A DNA stretch of 64,000 bases from Pararhizobium sp. IMCC21322 (GTDB taxonomy: Bacteria; Pseudomonadota; Alphaproteobacteria; Rhizobiales; GCA-2746425): contig NZ_CP132335.1 of the NCBI RefSeq assembly GCF_030758295.1, positions 186,001-250,000 of the forward strand. Direction: 5' to 3'. Positions within the stretch are counted from its first letter, which is position 1, and each line of letters begins with the position of its first letter. Made by a program: the position numbers and the translations under genes. The notes beneath the pieces were generated by a model. It made no database searches and was not told the origin of the DNA. It worked only from the letters and a program-made list of their open reading frames with translations. Positions 3,234 through 63,589 of the stretch are shown here, piece by piece.

Positions 3234-4562
3234 TCAGTTCCAGGTGTAGTAGCCGGCCTCGTCCATGATGGCCCGGGCACGCTCGGCAACACCATCCAGA
3301 GCTTCCTGAGGATCAAGATCTTCCGTCAGAACCTTGGACATTGAGGTTCCGATATCGGCATTGATCTTGCCCCAGGTTGGGATGATTGGACGCCAGTCAG
3401 GATCAGCATATTTCAGGGCTTCACCGAAGGTTGCGGAATAAGGATATTTCTCATTCAGCCCGGCATCTTCATAGGTTGAGAAGCGTGATGGGTTTCCACC
3501 AGCCATGGCAACCATCAGATCACCTTTTTTGGAAGTCAGCCACTGCATCAGCAGGAAGGCAGCTTCCTTGTTCTGGGCGTTCTGCGGAATGGCAATACCA
3601 AATCCACCTGTCTGGGAGCCGCGACGGACGCCTTCAGGATGAAGGGCATAGCCAACTTTACCGGCCACTTTGGATTTGGAAGGATCTTCAAAACCGGCAG
3701 CAAAGGCAATCGAGTCCATGAACATGGCAGCCTGACCCTGCGAGAACGCAGCAGCCGCTTCAGCAGGTCCGAATGTCTGTGCACCTTCCGGACCACAATC
3801 CACGATAGTTTTCAGAGCATTTGCAGCAGCAACACCGGCTTCATTATTGATGATCGGGTTCCACTCACCGTCAAACACACGGCCACCCAACGGCGCCAGA
3901 TGCAGGAGGAATGCGTGGCTGGCCTGATGGCCTGAGGCTGCACGGGATGCCATGCCACCAACGCCTGGCTCAACTTCTGGAATTTTGCAGGCTGCATCAA
4001 GAAGCTGGTCATAGGTTTCAGGAACCGCGATGCCATGCTTTTCAAAGATATCCTTGCGATAGGCCAGAACGGATGTTTCTGATCCGAATGGAATACCATA
4101 AAGGGAGCCGGTTTTGCCGGGCAGATAACCCTTCGTGCCACCGGCAACGCCGATATTCTGCACATAACCGTCAATCAGATCATCTGCATCATACTTCGGA
4201 TCAGACAGTTTCGGGTTCATGAAATAGCGTGCAAGGTTCTCAAGCTGATCTGCAAATACGTAATCGGCTTTGGAGAACACCACATAGGCGATCAGATCGT
4301 AATCGCCTTCATCCTTGGTCAATTCCAGGGTCTGGCGCTCGCGCATTTTCAGATACTGCAATTGATCGACTTCAACGCGAATACCGGTTTCCTTGGTGAA
4401 TTCCGGCAGAATTTTCATCACTGCATTATAGTGCGGATGGGCTGGAAAGTTCACCACCAGGGTGGTGCCTTCATAAGGCTCGTATGGGTTTGCCAGAACA
4501 GTGGATGACATCATAGCCAACCCAGCTGCCGCAGCCGTTGTGTATTTCAGGAAATTCAGCAT
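3234..4562 (-). CDS. Sugar ABC transporter substrate-binding protein
   Basis: 442 residues starting at ATG 4562, preceded by an AGGGAGG ribosome site at about 4570-4577; the frame extends 12 codons further but without a comparable site. A signal peptide (MLNFLKYTTAAAAGLAMMSS, cleavage near TVLA-NP) sends it to the periplasm. The mature part has the type-2 extracellular solute-binding pattern of CUT1 systems: LPEFTKETGIRVEVDQL, later GQAAMFMDS and AAFLLMQWLTS. It delivers a carbohydrate or polyol to the two permeases that follow. No substrate can be named from sequence alone. Confidence 0.9.
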   Translation of the reverse strand: MLNFLKYTTAAAAGLAMMSSTVLANPYEPYEGTTLVVNFPAHPHYNAVMKILPEFTKETGIRVEVDQLQYLKMRERQTLELTKDEGDYDLIAYVVFSKADYVFADQLENLARYFMNPKLSDPKYDADDLIDGYVQNIGVAGGTKGYLPGKTGSLYGIPFGSETSVLAYRKDIFEKHGIAVPETYDQLLDAACKIPEVEPGVGGMASRAASGHQASHAFLLHLAPLGGRVFDGEWNPIINNEAGVAAANALKTIVDCGPEGAQTFGPAEAAAAFSQGQAAMFMDSIAFAAGFEDPSKSKVAGKVGYALHPEGVRRGSQTGGFGIAIPQNAQNKEAAFLLMQWLTSKKGDLMVAMAGGNPSRFSTYEDAGLNEKYPYSATFGEALKYADPDWRPIIPTWGKINADIGTSMSKVLTEDLDPQEALDGVAERARAIMDEAGYYTWN

Positions 4563-4594: not shown

Positions 4595-5677
4595 TCAAAG
4601 CCGCTTTCCGGACGTATGGTCGAAAAGCATTATTTCGTCCGTGCGAATTGCAAACTCGTTGATTTCGCCCGCTTTGACAGGTGAAGAACTTTCGTACTCC
4701 ACAAGAACATCGGCAGCGCCACAGCGCGTTACCAAAACAGATTGGGCACCCAGATATTCCGAGACGATGATCCGCAGGGAAATGGGCGCGCCTTGTGAGA
4801 CATCTGATGAGAAAGACGATGGACGGATACCGACAGAAACTGACTTGTTGGTATAGCTGGCAAGCCGCGTGGACTGCTCGTCCGTCAAAGGCAATGAGAA
4901 GCCATCGCCCTTGACAGTCAGCTGGCCGCTTTCAGTCATCAACTCGCCATCAAGGAAATTCATGGTCGGGCTGCCAATGAAGCCGGCGACAAATTTATTG
5001 GCCGGAGATTTGAACAGCTCTTCCGGCGTGCCCTGCTGTTGAATAATGCCTTCGGACATCACCACAATACGGTCGCCCAGCGTCATCGCTTCAATCTGAT
5101 CATGCGTCACATAGACCATGTTCTTGTCGAGCGTGTTGCGCATTTCCGCCAGCTCGGTGCGCATTTTAGCGCGCAGCTTTGCATCCAGATTGGACAATGG
5201 CTCATCAAACAGGAACGTCGAGGCATCGCGCACCAGGGCACGGCCCATGGCCACCCTCTGGCGCTGCCCGCCTGAAAGTTCGGCCGGCTTGCGTTGCAGC
5301 AGATGATCAATATTCAGCATCGTTGCGACGCGCTTGACCTTGTCATCAATCTCGGATTTTGGCACCCGCGCCAGTCGCAGCGCAAAGGACATGTTCTTTG
5401 CGATGTTCATGTGCGGGTAAAGCGCATAATCCTGAAACACCATGGCCAGATCGCGCTCTTTGGGTTCCAGATGGCTTATCGGTTTTTCATCGAAGTAAAT
5501 CTCGCCACCACTGAGCGTTTCAAGCCCGGCAAGAATACGCAGAGTCGTGGACTTGCCGCAGCCTGAAGGCCCGACGAGCACAGTGAACTCACCATCACTA
5601 AGTTCAAGGTCGACCGGTGGCAGCACGCGAACACTACCAAAACTCTTCTCAATCTTTTCGAAACGGATATTCGGCAA
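4595..5677 (-). CDS. ABC transporter ATPase (UgpC/MalK family)
   Basis: About 360 residues. Walker A GPSGCGKST, Q-loop MVFQDYALYPHM, signature LSGGQRQRVAMGRALVRD, Walker B FLFDEPLSNLD and H-loop VTHD are all present, followed by a C-terminal TOBE-type regulatory region. I chose TTG at 5677 because GGGAGG lies 5 bp upstream and it yields the normal family N-terminus MPNIRFEKIEKSFG; an ATG 9 codons upstream is the alternative. It is the first gene of the leftward operon, divergent from a LacI-type repressor, with an operator-like palindrome between them. Confidence 0.92.
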   Translation of the reverse strand: MPNIRFEKIEKSFGSVRVLPPVDLELSDGEFTVLVGPSGCGKSTTLRILAGLETLSGGEIYFDEKPISHLEPKERDLAMVFQDYALYPHMNIAKNMSFALRLARVPKSEIDDKVKRVATMLNIDHLLQRKPAELSGGQRQRVAMGRALVRDASTFLFDEPLSNLDAKLRAKMRTELAEMRNTLDKNMVYVTHDQIEAMTLGDRIVVMSEGIIQQQGTPEELFKSPANKFVAGFIGSPTMNFLDGELMTESGQLTVKGDGFSLPLTDEQSTRLASYTNKSVSVGIRPSSFSSDVSQGAPISLRIIVSEYLGAQSVLVTRCGAADVLVEYESSSPVKAGEINEFAIRTDEIMLFDHTSGKRL

Positions 5678-53177: not shown

Positions 53178-53360
53178 ATACCTCTATCCCAACTTCCTTC
53201 CTGCGCAGCTAGCGGCTGCGTAATGAACAGTCTATGGAGAGGCAACAATTTGGTCTGCTGATCGTTGTCACTCCGCTAAGTCGATCAAATTCGACTGATC
53301 ATTCAAACGGCCACTTACTTGAAGGGCCACGGGGCTCATAGTCTCAAGAAGGAAACAACA

Positions 53361-53906
53361 ATGTCTATTTTGAAACAGGGAATGTCCGGTGCCCCGGTCA
53401 AGCGTCTGCAGGAAAAGCTTGGCATCGGCGCCGACGGTATTTTCGGTAGCGGCACTAAAAAGGCCGTCATGGAGTACCAAAGGGCCAATGGCCTGGCCGT
53501 TGATGGCATTGCCGGACCGGATACATTCACAGCCATGGGCTTGCAGGAACTGGTCCTGTTGCGCGTCGGGTCCCGTGGCGCGGCGGTGAAGCAGCTGCAG
53601 GAAGCACTTGGCATCGGTGCTGACGGCATCTACGGCAAGGGCACCAGGCAGGCGGTCATGGATTATCAGAAAGCCAACAACCTGAGCGCAGACGGCATGG
53701 CAGGTCCTTCAACCCTTGCCAGCATGGATTCCTTTGCCGATTTCACAACCGAGACGGTTGCACGCGCAGAAGTCCAGCCCGACGAAGATCATTTCGACAG
53801 CGAAGACATGCCAGAAATCAAAGGCAGCGACCCGGTCCAGGGATCAGCTGCAGAAGCTGCACCCGATAAATCCCTCTGGGGCAAGGTCACAGGTTGGTTT
53901 GGCTGA
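53361..53906 (+). CDS. Protein with two peptidoglycan-binding (PG_binding_1) domains
   Basis: 181 residues from ATG 53361 (GAAGGAAAC before). Two PG_binding_1 units follow each other: residues 1-55 (GAPVKRLQEKLGIGADGIFG, AVMEYQRANGLAVDGIAG) and 65-125 (GAAVKQLQEALGIGADGIYG, AVMDYQKANNLSADGMAG). There is no signal peptide. An acidic linker leads to the C-terminal tail AAPDKSLWGKVTGWFG. The last 77 bp, including 12 bp after the stop, are duplicated at 58326-58402. It could bind peptidoglycan after non-classical export or recognise another ligand. Confidence 0.85.
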   Translation: MSILKQGMSGAPVKRLQEKLGIGADGIFGSGTKKAVMEYQRANGLAVDGIAGPDTFTAMGLQELVLLRVGSRGAAVKQLQEALGIGADGIYGKGTRQAVMDYQKANNLSADGMAGPSTLASMDSFADFTTETVARAEVQPDEDHFDSEDMPEIKGSDPVQGSAAEAAPDKSLWGKVTGWFG

Positions 53907-57730: not shown

Positions 57731-57965
57731 AATATCAACCTATGTGCTCTCACGGCATTCCAAATACTTCGTGATGTAAAGGCTCAAAACCATTTGTATA
57801 TCCAGATGCCCGGACTCACTGTGGCACGCGCCAAGCGCAATCGCCTGCAAAGTACTTTTTGCGTCCCCTTGAAGGGAGGCAATGCGGATTTTTCTTCTAA
57901 AGTTGCAACACCTTTGTAAACAACTCAACAAGTCCCCATGTCAATTCCCGATAGCGGAGCACCCT

Positions 57966-58391
57966 GTGAGAAAACTTGTAAAATCTGTTTTTTGCTTCTT
58001 GTTCCTTGCAGCATTTACGTCATCTTCCGTTGCTGATCAGTCGCTTGGAATGACAAGTCTTGATGTAGCTGGAGGGGACCATGAGCGTCCATTGCAGCTT
58101 TCGCTTTGGTATCCAGCGGAAGGAGGAACGCCCTCACCCGTCGGAGGCAATGCCGTTTTCCTGGGAACAAATGCGGTTCGCAATGCTCCCATAACAGGTG
58201 AAAAACATCCCCTTGTGCTCATTTCTCATGGCGGATTGCGGTCGGCAGCTGATTCAGGGGCATGGTTAAGTGCCAAACTTGCCGAATCCGGCTTTCTGAC
58301 CATAGAGGTCAACGCGCCGCGACCGGGTTCAGCTGCAGAAGCTGCACCGGATAAATCACTCTGGGGCAAGGTCACAGGTTGGTTTGGCTGA
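57966..58391 (+). pseudogene. Truncated alpha/beta hydrolase joined to the tail of the PG-binding gene
   Basis: Open frame of 141 codons from GTG 57966 (GGAG 8 bp before). It has a signal peptide (LVKSVFCFLFLAAFTSSSVA) and the N-terminal part of a dienelactone-hydrolase-like protein (LQLSLWYPAEGGTPSP, HPLVLISHGGLRSAADSGAW), but stops being a hydrolase after VNAPRP. The last 21 codons are the duplicated tail of the PG-binding protein. The nucleophile elbow and the rest of the hydrolase are missing, so catalytic activity is unlikely; a short exported product may still be made. Confidence 0.8.
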
Positions 58392-60444: not shown

Positions 60445-60472
60445 TGTTGCAAAAACGATCGTACTTGCGACA
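60445..60472. repeat. Recombinase-type 28-bp inverted-repeat site (left)
   Basis: TGTTGCAA and TTGCGACA form imperfect 8-bp ends of a 28-bp site with a central AT, the size and shape of the crossover site (site I) of Tn3/Sin-type serine resolvases. Its first 12 bp and last 8 bp are nearly the same as those of the site at 61403-61430. It lies 70 bp after the AbiV stop codon. Confidence 0.6.
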
Positions 60473-60541
60473 ACGAAGGTCTACTTCCCAATCGAGTGTT
60501 TCTCCGCTGTTTAGGAAGGGTGCAACGGACTGAATGTTCGT

Positions 60542-61249
60542 TTACTGCGCGGCACGGAACGGCGTTCCTGTCTTGATGTGATCCCGCTCATATCCGAGAA
60601 CCGCTTCCACGATATCTTGCTGGCCTGCTTCCATGCGCGAGATGTAGTACCACCAGAAGTCTTCGGAGTTCAGCACCTCCTGAGACTTTGCAGACTTCAT
60701 CGTGAACAGCCTGTTCTGTGCGAATGTGAACCTTGATGGTATCTTTTCGCTCACTTGGCGGTGTGCATAGGCGAGACAGTCCTCGGCCAGCCTTATACAA
60801 TCCTTTGCGGCGTTGGCGCGTACGACCTCGCGAGGCGTCTGCACCCGATCCGGATTGGTACGTAGGTCACTGTACATCGACGGTTCGCGCCCGCGCTTAA
60901 GGTGGAAAATCAGATCAAGCGCCACCTTTAACGATTCGCGCGGGTCAGAGCTGCTCAAGGCCCAACTGCTCAAGGCGTAGCTGATCTTCTGGGCGTGACT
61001 TTCCATGACCGCTTTCAGCTTGGTGCAAACTGCTGGATCAGATAGGTTGCGGTTCTGGGCATCGAAACCGAACAGCGCTTTGCCCGCTTCCTCAATGCTC
61101 GCCACTGCCAAGAAGTAGGCCCGCGCCATGTGATCATGGTCACGCAAGAGCACCGCTTCAACAAGCAATTCATCGGCGTTACGGAGCGCGGCCTCACTGT
61201 AGGAACGTAGAAGTTCTTTAGTGATCTTGGGTATGTGCGGTGAGCCCAC
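60542..61249 (-). CDS. abiV: AbiV-family abortive-infection protein
   Basis: 235 residues from GTG 61249, with AGGAG 5 bp before. The helical core SYSEAALRNADELLVEAVLL followed by HMARAYFLAVASIEEAGKAL matches the AbiV signature (A-x-A-L-x-L-A-x-EE-x-GKA). AbiV blocks phage multiplication in Lactococcus by acting on translation; many relatives exist next to other defence genes. The gene is flanked by two similarly oriented recombinase-type sites and lies on the opposite strand to the recombinase operon. Confidence 0.8.
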   Translation of the reverse strand: MGSPHIPKITKELLRSYSEAALRNADELLVEAVLLRDHDHMARAYFLAVASIEEAGKALFGFDAQNRNLSDPAVCTKLKAVMESHAQKISYALSSWALSSSDPRESLKVALDLIFHLKRGREPSMYSDLRTNPDRVQTPREVVRANAAKDCIRLAEDCLAYAHRQVSEKIPSRFTFAQNRLFTMKSAKSQEVLNSEDFWWYYISRMEAGQQDIVEAVLGYERDHIKTGTPFRAAQ

Positions 61250-61314
61250 GGCTACTCCTGTCGCAAGTGTGGTGAGATGAACCTGCAAATCGAGTTATTT
61301 CATACCCATCTCGA

Positions 61315-61344
61315 ATTCTCCAAGTTTTGGAAAATTTGGAGAAT
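61315..61344. repeat. 9-bp inverted repeat near the recombinase sites
   Basis: ATTCTCCAA/TTGGAGAAT is a perfect 9-bp stem with a 12-nt loop, followed by CTTTTT. It ends 5 bp before the tandem TTGCGACA motifs. It could be a rightward terminator or part of the recombination site. Confidence 0.55.
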
Positions 61345-61348
61345 CTTT

Positions 61349-61369
61349 TTGCGACAAAGTTTTGCGACA
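61349..61369. repeat. Tandem TTGCGACA motifs, accessory-site type
   Basis: TTGCGACA at 61349-61356 and 61362-61369, 13 bp apart in the same orientation. Head-to-tail motifs next to an inverted-repeat site resemble site II plus site I of Sin/beta-type recombination sites. Confidence 0.55.
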
Positions 61370-61402
61370 TCTAAGCTGTTGATATAGCTGGGTGCGAAAA
61401 AC

Positions 61403-61430
61403 CGTTGCAAAAACCTTCGATTTTGCGACA
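61403..61430. repeat. Recombinase-type 28-bp inverted-repeat site (right)
   Basis: GTTGCAA and TTGCGACA at the ends of a 28-bp site, in the same orientation as the copy at 60445-60472, which shares GTTGCAAAAAC and the right arm. The central dinucleotide is TT rather than AT. It lies 30 bp before the small zinc-ribbon gene. Confidence 0.6.
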
Positions 61431-61459
61431 CTTGAGACACAAATTGTCAATTAGGAATA

Positions 61460-61672
61460 ATGAAGATGTCCAATCCATACTCCGCCGCGCATCCCTATCA
61501 TGGCGACGATTTCGAAATTGAATGCCCAAAATGTGGCGCGAAAAACCGAGTGAGCGTGACTAAACAGGACGGACATAACGAACCGGAAGAATATCACTGT
61601 GCCGGATGTTCCGCGCAAATTGGCAAAATTCGAGCATCAATAACTCCAGAAACCTCCCTTATTACTGACTAG
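61460..61672 (+). CDS. Small zinc-ribbon protein
   Basis: 70 residues from ATG 61460 with AGGAAT before (ATG 61466 also possible). Two CxxC pairs (FEIECPKCGAKNRVSVTKQD, EEYHCAGCSAQIGKI) suggest a zinc ribbon. It sits between recombination sites and the recombinase gene. Function unknown; could bind nucleic acid. Confidence 0.65.
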   Translation: MKMSNPYSAAHPYHGDDFEIECPKCGAKNRVSVTKQDGHNEPEEYHCAGCSAQIGKIRASITPETSLITD

Positions 61673-61732
61673 GCAATTCAGCTCTTCCTTTTTGCAACGC
61701 CTTTTGTGGGTAAGTGAAATCAATCACTTGGC

Positions 61733-61753
61733 TGTCGCAAAATCTTGTTGCAA
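61733..61753. repeat. Tandem recombinase-motif copies before the recombinase gene
   Basis: TGTCGCAA (61733-61740) and TGTTGCAA (61746-61753), 13 bp apart, in the opposite orientation to the pair at 61349-61369. They end 9 bp before the recombinase ATG and could mediate autoregulation or serve as accessory sites. Confidence 0.55.
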
Positions 61754-61762
61754 AATATCCGC

Positions 61763-62320
61763 ATGAGAATTGGATATGCCCGCGTCTCAACCGTTGACCA
61801 AAATCCAAACGCACAGCGCGATGCGCTAAAGGCGGCTGGCTGTGAAAAGGTCGTCACCGAGAAAGTGTCTGGTGCATCGCTCAAGCGGCCAAAACTGGAA
61901 AAGCTTTTGCGCTCCCTCGATGCTGGCGATGTTCTGACAGTCTGGCGATTGGATAGGGTAGGGCGGTCATTGCCGCATCTTCTTCAAGTGGTGGCAGACC
62001 TCAAAGTGCGGAATATAGGTTTTCAATCACTCAATGAGACAATCGACACGACCACGGCCAATGGTGAACTGATATTCCACCTGTTTGCGTCTATGGCGCA
62101 ATTTGAACGCTCCCTGATAGTCGAACGCACCCAAGCAGGACTTGTGGCTGCAAAAAAACGCGGCGTGCGCCTAGGGCGACCTTCTGCGCTCACTGCGGCA
62201 CAAATTAAACACGCTCGCAAATTGATTGAATCAGGCGAACGTCCATCTGCCGTAGCAGAAACTTTAGAAGTTGATAGATCAACGCTCTATAGATATCTAA
62301 AAGGGGAGGTCAGCGCATGA
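61763..62320 (+). CDS. Serine site-specific recombinase (Tn3 resolvase / Pin type)
   Basis: 185 residues from ATG 61763. Catalytic Ser9 in MRIGYARVSTVDQNPNAQRD, conserved arginine region LTVWRLDRVGRSLPHLL, helix E start ANGELIFHLFASMAQFERSL, and C-terminal HTH SGERPSAVAETLEVDRSTLY. Such enzymes resolve, invert or integrate DNA at 28-bp crossover sites. Its stop overlaps the next start (ATGA). No classical ribosome site; motif copies cover the region in front of it. Confidence 0.92.
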   Translation: MRIGYARVSTVDQNPNAQRDALKAAGCEKVVTEKVSGASLKRPKLEKLLRSLDAGDVLTVWRLDRVGRSLPHLLQVVADLKVRNIGFQSLNETIDTTTANGELIFHLFASMAQFERSLIVERTQAGLVAAKKRGVRLGRPSALTAAQIKHARKLIESGERPSAVAETLEVDRSTLYRYLKGEVSA

Positions 62321-62889
62321 GATATCGACTTGAAGGCAATTGGAAAAAGGGGCTTGCATTCGATCTACACACCCTTGCAAGCACTTACCTCGGCACTGAT
62401 GAATTCGGACATGATAGATGGGACACAACCCGCAGTGAAATGGGCGAATTGGTCTACCAGTTAAAATACCAAAACGATAAATCTGTAGTACCAAAGATTA
62501 TCGAACTTTTGAAACCCATCGGCAAAATCGAACAGTTCGATGCAATTATCCCCGTACCGTCATCAAAAGATCGCCCTTAGCAACCTGTAGACGAAATAGC
62601 TAAAGCTTTGGGGGAACAGAGAAGTGTTCCTGTACTTCAAGGCTACCTAAAAAAAGAAACAGGCATAGAACTAAAAGGCATTGATGATCCTGATGAACGA
62701 AAAGAGGCTTTGATGAATTCAATTTCAATACAGGGTGATACCGACATTTCAGGAAATCGTGTACTATTGATAGATGACCTCTATCGATCCGGTGCTACAC
62801 TGGAAGCATGCTGCCATGTACTTACAGAACAATCAAAAGTCGAATTTGTTTCTGTCTTAACAATGACTAAATCAAGGAGCAAAAGATGA
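62317..62889 (+). pseudogene. ComF-like phosphoribosyltransferase interrupted by an in-frame TAG
   Basis: 190 codons in one frame, broken only by TAG at 62578-62580. Before it: MRYRLEGNWKKGLAFDLHTL, GELVYQLKYQNDKSVVPKI, FDAIIPVPSSKDRP. After it: QPVDEIAKALGEQRSVPVLQ and the PRPP-binding motif RVLLIDDLYRSGATLEACCH, TMTKSRSKR. The stop sits where ComF-like proteins usually have an aromatic residue (R-P/L-Y/F-QPV), so one base change explains it. ATG overlaps the recombinase stop. The gene is more AT-rich than the chromosome. Reinitiation (TTG 62608) or readthrough cannot be excluded. Confidence 0.82.
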
Positions 62890-63446
62890 CCATCGTTTTT
62901 CTATCTGGTTCGCGAAAAATCAATCGAATCAACGACACTGTCAGAAGTCGAGTTCAAAACATGATTGACCAAAATTTTCAGATTGTGGTCGGTGATGCAA
63001 ATGGTGCAGACAAAGCTCTTCAGGTATTTCTGGATCAAAACCACTATCGGAACGTCACGGTTTTTTGTGCAGGAACCACCTGCCGAAATAATGTCGGTGA
63101 TTGGCAAACAGATCAAGTTCTGGTCGATAAAAAATTAAGTGGTAGAGATTTCTACACCGAAAAGGACAAAAAAATGGCGGCGGTTGCTGACTATGGGTTT
63201 GTGCTGTGGGACGGGAAAAGTGCCGGATCAATCAACAATGTTTTTGAACTTCTAAAGCGCGGTAAGAAAGTAGTGGTCTACCTCTCCCCAAAGAAGGAGT
63301 TTTTGACCATCACAGAACCACATGATGTTGATTCACTTCTACAGAACTGTGACAGTGCCGATTATTTATCGCTCAATAAGAAAATCAATATGCGCCGACA
63401 TATGGACGATTTACACTCAACTTCGCAAGGTTCATTCAGCATTTGA
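62886..63446 (+). CDS. SLOG-fold nucleotide-sensing-type protein
   Basis: 186 residues, ATG overlapping the stop of the phosphoribosyltransferase gene (ATGA). The first 140 residues follow the SLOG pattern: IVFLSGSRKI at the N-terminus, then the FQIVVGDANGADKALQVFLD motif (G-x-A-x-G-x-D), then YGFVLWDGKSAGSINNVFEL and KKVVVYLSP. SLOG domains sense or process nucleotides and are frequent in conflict systems. The pairing with ComF-like phosphoribosyltransferases is recurrent in my memory of bacterial genomes, usually without a known role. AT-rich. Confidence 0.75.
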   Translation: MTIVFLSGSRKINRINDTVRSRVQNMIDQNFQIVVGDANGADKALQVFLDQNHYRNVTVFCAGTTCRNNVGDWQTDQVLVDKKLSGRDFYTEKDKKMAAVADYGFVLWDGKSAGSINNVFELLKRGKKVVVYLSPKKEFLTITEPHDVDSLLQNCDSADYLSLNKKINMRRHMDDLHSTSQGSFSI

Positions 63447-63589
63447 CACGCCAGTAATCAGAACAGATTTTCGTCGCCGTTTGGCCTCTAAAAAGTTCCA
63501 TAATGAACGTTATGCGCCACTGGGCATATTTTAAGTCCCTCAAAACAGACATGAAACTGTATGCTTACAAGCAAAAAGGTGCCGCACAC

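Follow-up and report, generated by a model that had tools for sequence, protein, structure and literature searches.

A putative serine-recombinase gene cassette carrying AbiV beside a phosphoribosyltransferase-SLOG pair in Pararhizobium sp. IMCC21322

In the genome of Pararhizobium sp. IMCC21322 a small serine recombinase, a ComF-like phosphoribosyltransferase (PRT) and a SLOG/DprA-like protein are encoded in overlapping frames next to an AbiV-family abortive-infection gene, which raises the question which of these genes belong together and what the recombinase moves. The stretch analysed here, referred to as the window, comprises 64,000 nucleotides (bases 186001-250000 of contig NZ_CP132335.1, forward strand) of a 5.25-Mb single-contig genome, labelled G000. 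A preliminary description of this DNA had proposed that recombinase, PRT and SLOG may act as one unit in nucleotide-based defence and bring their own mobility enzyme. Our best joint reading, to which we give slightly more credence than doubt, is that AbiV is the cargo of a non-autonomous cassette moved by a small serine recombinase, and that the adjacent PRT and SLOG genes constitute a toxin-antitoxin-like pair. For comparison we used a set of five genomes of the same genus (including G000, G002 and G004) and an order-level set of 397 genomes; G, L and H numbers denote genomes, loci taken from genomes or contigs, and plasmid neighbourhoods, respectively, and g70 is one distant genus.

The AbiV gene between two recombination sites

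The AbiV gene (60542-61288, minus strand), a HEPN family member and the proposed cassette cargo, lies between two 28-bp imperfect palindromes on the plus strand, at 60445-60472 with the core AT and at 61403-61430 with the core TT. Its family and its position just upstream of the recombinase block, on the opposite strand, had been recognised before, and both are upheld (Pfam HEPN_AbiV, 1.7e-24; NCBIfam TIGR04498, 5.9e-26, above the curated cut-offs). The right palindrome is accompanied by a second element at 61345-61371 (plus strand), consisting of two head-to-tail TTTTGCGACA motifs, and the two together make up an 86-bp stretch (61345-61430) with the layout of the res site of the recombinase Sin, which is described as 86 bp with a cleavage site I, a head-to-tail site II and a spacer between them (PMC2428073). 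The same names are used here: the AbiV gene stands between a lone, simple site I on the left and a complete res on the right, whose site I would be the right end of the cassette. A sequence-only model of res, R1, was built from eight aligned sites in which the spacer is conserved only in part; the window res scores 1.7e-25 against it, being itself one of the eight.

Res sites and insertion targets in other genomes

Matches to R1 were found in all five genomes of the genus (E ≤ 1; best matches 1.5e-10 to 1.7e-25) and in at least 18 of the 397 genomes of the order (E ≤ 1e-4), both counts being lower bounds, because only the best candidates per genome were scored (150 in the genus search, 10 in the order search). 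G000 alone has four strong matches, located far apart. An exact search pattern identified 14 stretches in genome contigs, one of which (L238) was judged a chance match, and two in viral contigs, both with one and the same cassette; the named sources include Hoeflea, Stappia, Ahrensia, Neomegalonema and Marinosulfonomonas. Both the model and the pattern are biased toward conserved sites.

The res sites are paired on one side. In a sample of 30 res sites, picked by hand and for the most part from Alphaproteobacteria (eight of those used had gone into R1), we looked for a second site I with at most six mismatches within 3.5 kb. Such a partner was present on the site II side in 19 of the 30 and on the other side in one, which has six mismatches, so that at five or fewer the counts are 18 and 0. 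Some contigs in the sample are cut short; restricting the count to the 18 sites that have 2.8 kb or more of sequence on each side gives 9 and 1. Left out of this comparison were the recombinase-proximal sites of G000, G004, G002, L190 and L193, the second res of G116, the duplicates L234, L240 and L245, the chance match L238, and the weak R1 matches L044, L097, L192, L194-L196, G062, G078, G184 and others from the genus search, while the weak matches L095, L096, L033 and L191 were kept. Over 295,393 bases there were 45 sites with at most five mismatches, as compared with none in each of ten block shuffles.

Partners are located 0.13-3.1 kb from their res. Twenty between-site stretches, some of them bounded by two simple sites, were surveyed for open reading frames (ORFs) of at least 55 aa, at most three being listed for each; they measure 0.41-2.57 kb and 17 of them hold one or two such ORFs. 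At three loci the unit is reduced to a gene-free 133 bp with the left site, site II and site I. In another arrangement, seen at L044 (5526-6376; G000 3321525-3322376), an ORF that by eye resembles a VIT1-like membrane protein is placed between two AT-core site I palindromes with no clear site II.

The position of the insert boundary can be read from three g70 genomes, G329, G272 and G366, where common left and right target sequence surrounds unrelated inserts of 799, 1040 and 1352 bp, two of them with res; blastn at 1e-3 gave no mutual match among the three inserts. G329 and G272 are identical across the 38 bases up to the AT core, and their right flanks agree in 77% of 60 bases without gaps. 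G366 has 25 identical left bases to the core and a matching 22-base right flank; the ungapped right-flank comparison with it gives 32%, a low figure because its half-site is one base shorter. Since common flanks reach to the core around unrelated inserts, the left boundary lies at the core and the outer half-sites are part of the target. The target is accompanied in L188 by repeats of about 100-200 bp (4219-4342 and 5179-5386) with many copies in g70 genomes.

Ten cargo and neighbour proteins were scanned against each profile library. Three matched Pfam, two of them above the cut-off, and four matched PADLOC at 0.01, two weakly (0.0015 and 0.0038). One PADLOC match belongs to a Shedu SduA gene of G004 (L038, 5994-7163; PADLOC 1.8e-140), which stands directly beside a res, on the side away from site II. 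The G366 insert encodes a protein (L208, 256-1467) with no Pfam match; over its first 120 residues it matches models of endonucleases and effectors in PADLOC (best 1.2e-20). This gene occupies the same target sequence as two res cassettes, and its insert is perhaps a related element with another mover. Defence matches being few among the scanned proteins, defence is, on this evidence, a part of the cargo and not the rule.

The recombinase and a possible cassette mechanism

The recombinase gene (61763-62320, plus strand) encodes 185 aa from the likely start, ATG 61763, or 191 aa from TTG 61745. Its assignment in the preliminary description agrees with the Pfam matches to Resolvase (6.5e-44) and HTH_7 (2.2e-8), the composition of a small serine recombinase of the Sin type with a C-terminal helix-turn-helix (HTH). 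Just before the ATG there is a res-like site on the minus strand, formed by half a site I (61687-61699) and a site II (61733-61757), and R1 matches 61687-61757 with E 3.5e-11. Homologues in L190, L193 and L230 (70.7%, 70.1% and 87.6% identity) have res-type motifs ahead of their ATG as well, the site I palindrome of L193 being a variant. Contigs with these homologues carry ORFs which by eye resemble relaxases or coupling proteins, and therefore this enzyme family may once have served in plasmid resolution. The recombinase is more likely to belong to the res and cassette system that also encloses AbiV than to PRT-SLOG. As a separate observation, L230 (JAAEMV010001022.1), where the recombinase stands beside a relaxase-like ORF, is labelled a Planctomycetaceae metagenome-assembled genome and is possibly a misbinned alphaproteobacterial plasmid.

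The AbiV cassette would run from the core of the left, target site I to the res, of which the cassette carries site II and the inner half-site of site I. The enzyme would be a small serine recombinase, for which the gene 0.3 kb away is the simplest candidate, acting in trans. It would bind the TTGCRACA half-sites and pair the cassette res with a lone site I-like target before cutting at the core and joining the ends. By this route a circle would be inserted, and excision would be the reverse.

Several observations weigh against this scheme, and the chief of them concerns the cores. Conservative exchange expects identical cores, and here they are AT on the left and TT on the right. This holds also in the wider sample, where 17 of the 19 left cores are AT (the others CG and AA) and 24 of the 30 res cores are TT, or 25 with L189 taken in register. 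The mismatch is the main difficulty and conservative recombination does not explain it. If the cassette brings TT and the target AT, the ends seen here are those expected from the top strand alone. One-strand processes have been described for integron cassettes and strand-biased elements with tyrosine recombinases (PMC9345347); for a serine enzyme such a process is speculation. The end mismatch could also simply stabilise the insertion.

Further points on the same side are the following. We saw neither a circle nor an empty target, nor any movement. In 11 of the 30 cases the res lacks a left site, with only 56 bp of DNA available there in one of these, and at the L186-L189 cassettes no recombinase homologue was found in the fetched loci, the whole genomes not having been searched for one. 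The insert of G366 has no visible site II. The g70 target flanks are repeats with many copies in the genus; what the inserts have in common is therefore a target sequence and not a demonstrated locus. A place in G272 matches the G329 left flank at 99%, and the match ends 19 bp short of the site, with other DNA following and no empty target. A palindrome survey of the 397 genomes gave matches in 15, the reversed-pattern control giving 0 in every row, and no clearly empty g70 target; the GNAT/repeat place, considered as a possible empty site, lacks a site I in G000 (L135). What three relatives lack at L038 is a stretch of about 3.9 kb, more than the cassette alone, and the left junction of this insertion is not at a clear site. 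Finally, the solved structures nearest to the recombinase are DNA invertases (7.8e-47), followed by gamma-delta resolvase (5.8e-25), and not Sin, which is distant: 2r0q, listed as Tn552 bin3 and which we take to be Sin, scores 2.7e-20, and the chains named Sin score 1.8e-14.

A wider version of the cassette reading would regard these units as an alphaproteobacterial serine-recombinase counterpart of integron and dif-module cassettes: non-autonomous, with a Sin-like res at one end, some anti-phage cargo, rare site I-like targets and a resolvase-family enzyme of plasmid or island origin, the AT/TT asymmetry reflecting the retention of one strand, as in replicative cassette integration. We put this version forward tentatively, with rather more reserve than conviction.

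The most serious competing explanation is an ordinary plasmid dimer-resolution system, in which the chromosomal res sites would be relics of plasmid integration or decay, and the genes between sites hitchhikers that do not move. The relaxase- and coupling-protein-like ORFs on the L190, L193 and L230 contigs suit it, as does one of the G000 res sites (L014), which by eye lies beside a relaxase-like ORF; the insertion at L038 exceeds the cassette, and Sin itself is reported to resolve plasmid dimers (PMC2428073). The one-sided pairing, in contrast, fits discrete modules better, both in the full sample and in the subset with long flanks, and so do the short distances between partners, the gene-free 133-bp units and the three inserts in one target type. 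We consider dimer resolution unlikely, while still the alternative most deserving of attention.

It is improbable that the paired sites act as a switch, in which inversion or deletion between the site I copies would turn AbiV on or off where it stands. In favour of a switch, AbiV and the res are on opposite strands, an invertase is the closest solved structure to the recombinase, and an AT core is reported to permit inversion as well as resolution (PMC2764113); the two cores differ, however, which should block exchange between them, and in g70 the left outer half-site belongs to the target sequence.

The phosphoribosyltransferase-SLOG pair and comparison with known systems

The recombinase gene is followed on the plus strand by the PRT frame (62317-62889) and the SLOG gene (62886-63446; 186 aa), the product of the latter being a likely antitoxin or sensor partner. 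The gene calls of the preliminary description were largely right, including the two ATGA overlaps (62317-62320 and 62886-62889); it passed over the flanking palindromes, the res site and an in-frame TAG at 62578-62580. This stop interrupts the PRT frame, so that the three joined genes are not an intact set in this strain and the presumed toxin gene is broken. The counterpart of 61686-63513 in G004, which comprises recombinase, PRT and SLOG, is 99.2% identical over 1828 bp, with 15 differences, and its PRT frame is open. As the adjoining chromosome of G000 and G004 is only about 80% identical, the block appears to have been recently gained or exchanged as one piece. The interrupted frame indicates that the PRT-SLOG pair is probably inactive in this strain. 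A zinc-ribbon gene had also been placed ahead of the block; the ORF exists (61460-61672, plus strand), and its best family match (E 0.0015) is below the Pfam cut-off. Two longer G000 copies of DNA from the block region, considered as copies of this gene, were rejected, as they match recombinase DNA.

Within the genus, PRT and SLOG are both present in two of the five genomes, G000 and G004, in each case with the recombinase. Taken alone, PRT homologues are widespread (105 of the 397 genomes at 1e-5; outside the genus only four are below 1e-25), and for this reason co-occurrence was judged from SLOG, homologues of which are present in ten of the 397 genomes (E ≤ 1e-5), eight of them outside the genus. 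PRT adjoins SLOG in four of these eight loci, and a recombinase homologue in none (tblastn at 1e-3 within the 9.5-12 kb fetched around each SLOG gene). In the wider collection of genome contigs no PRT relatives were found.

A SLOG homologue is present on 98 plasmid records. Among the 20 best rows, 8 label it "addiction module antidote protein", as do 2 of 24 spread rows. Ten plasmid neighbourhoods were picked by hand and read from the record annotation. A ComF or phosphoribosyltransferase gene lies directly upstream of SLOG in six (H34, H35, H36, H46, H59 and H63); in H58 this place is taken by a hypothetical gene of PRT-like size, in H37 by a short ORF following an IS3, and in H66 and H69 no PRT-type gene was seen directly upstream. 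An annotated recombinase or resolvase occurs within 3 kb of SLOG in two of the ten (H34, divergent; H58, resD). Among the other SLOG homologues, those of NZ_CP119142.1 and NZ_CP119140.1, unannotated and with 53% identity, are on records of 2.17 Mb each filed as Neisseria gonorrhoeae plasmids, whose size suggests chromosomes.

The intact PRT of G004 matches PsyrT (1.9e-13) and ShosT (9.2e-9) in PADLOC, as expected of a phosphoribosyltransferase (PRTase) of the PsyrTA/ShosTA/RqlHI type, and stays below the curated cut-offs of Pfam Pribosyltran and of NCBIfam comF (1.9e-12). Toxin-antitoxin systems with DprA-like antitoxins have been named shosTA, syrTA and rqlHI, and a system of DprA with a PRTase is reported to protect against T7 and lambda (PMC9122126); the toxicity of RqlH maps to its PRTase domain (PMC4670107). 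Because of the adjacency, the PADLOC matches, the antidote labels and this literature, we read PRT-SLOG as a pair resembling a small member of the PsyrTA/ShosTA/RqlHI toxin-antitoxin and DprA-PRTase defence systems, with presumed toxin or defence activity. The PRT would be a nucleotide- or DNA-directed toxin and SLOG its antitoxin or a phage sensor. The likeness consists in a PRTase paired with a DprA/SLOG-like partner; the differences are that the window PRT has 190 aa and is without the helicase domain of RqlH, that its frame is interrupted, and that no C-terminal HTH was seen in the window SLOG protein, whereas three of four scanned relatives have an addiction-antidote or similar HTH there.

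For the SLOG product, profile comparison, suggested earlier as a check, gave weak matches to PADLOC ShosA (0.0021) and to Pfam DprA (0.019, below the cut-off), the best NCBIfam match (0.09) is to an unrelated family, a profile search of PDB returned a single match at 0.71, which is not meaningful, and the single-sequence fold is poor (mean pLDDT 45.8). A SLOG fold of the 62886-63446 product is thus weakly supported.

These results bear on the proposal of one defence unit with its own mover, which we regard as quite improbable. The ATGA overlaps speak for it, and so does the 1828-bp block, in which the trio was gained or exchanged together. The PRT is interrupted here, however, and the expectation that the three genes would recur together failed: with a recombinase homologue in none of the eight SLOG loci outside the genus, and any recombinase or resolvase in two of the ten plasmid neighbourhoods, the recombinase was rejected as a part of the PRT-SLOG system. 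What survives of the proposal is the recurrent two-gene module. Very improbable is a last alternative, that the palindromes are mere binding or terminator sequences with no role in recombination: they are AT-rich, and the site II close ahead of the recombinase ATG could be an operator, but the 86-bp arrangement is conserved and the insert boundaries are at the core.

Away from these genes, two ORFs of the window, 53319-53906 and 57882-58391, have the identical end peptide SAAEAAPDKSLWGKVTGWFG, and the second looks as if a duplicated tail had been fused to a different start.

Returning to the AbiV cassette, its parts can be set beside known systems. The AbiV protein belongs to its family by curated cut-offs, with the difference that here its gene lies between two recombination sites. 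The window res has the same length and layout as that of Sin/resH, yet the recombinase sequence is nearer to DNA invertase than to Sin, and here res copies mark one end of dispersed small units, a lone site I marking the other. Integron gene cassettes are small units that have their recombination site at one end and enter a target of simpler structure, and in this the present units are like them. They differ in that the enzyme encoded beside the sites is a serine recombinase and not a tyrosine integrase, and in that the res sites of G000 are far apart; a one-strand core bias is a possible further likeness to integrons (PMC9345347). The dif/pdif modules of Acinetobacter are likewise small gene modules bounded by resolution-type sites on chromosomes and plasmids (PMC12907356), but theirs are described as sites of the tyrosine recombinases XerCD, while the motifs found here also precede serine recombinase genes and the two ends are unequal. 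Among the open-licence PMC papers listed in our searches, no title or abstract opening describes serine-resolvase gene cassettes, which is not proof of their absence from print. The gene-cassette systems that we know of, integrons and dif modules, all use tyrosine recombinases.

The PRT-SLOG pair, for its part, is nothing out of the ordinary, but it is useful as a minimal relative of toxin-antitoxin and defence pairs already known. If the cassette reading is true, it raises the question how the topologically strict resolvase family could insert DNA, and the cargo would be findable through its 86-bp site. Serine-resolvase cassettes would then offer small groups of genes, including defence genes, one more way of spreading between chromosomes, plasmids and prophages.

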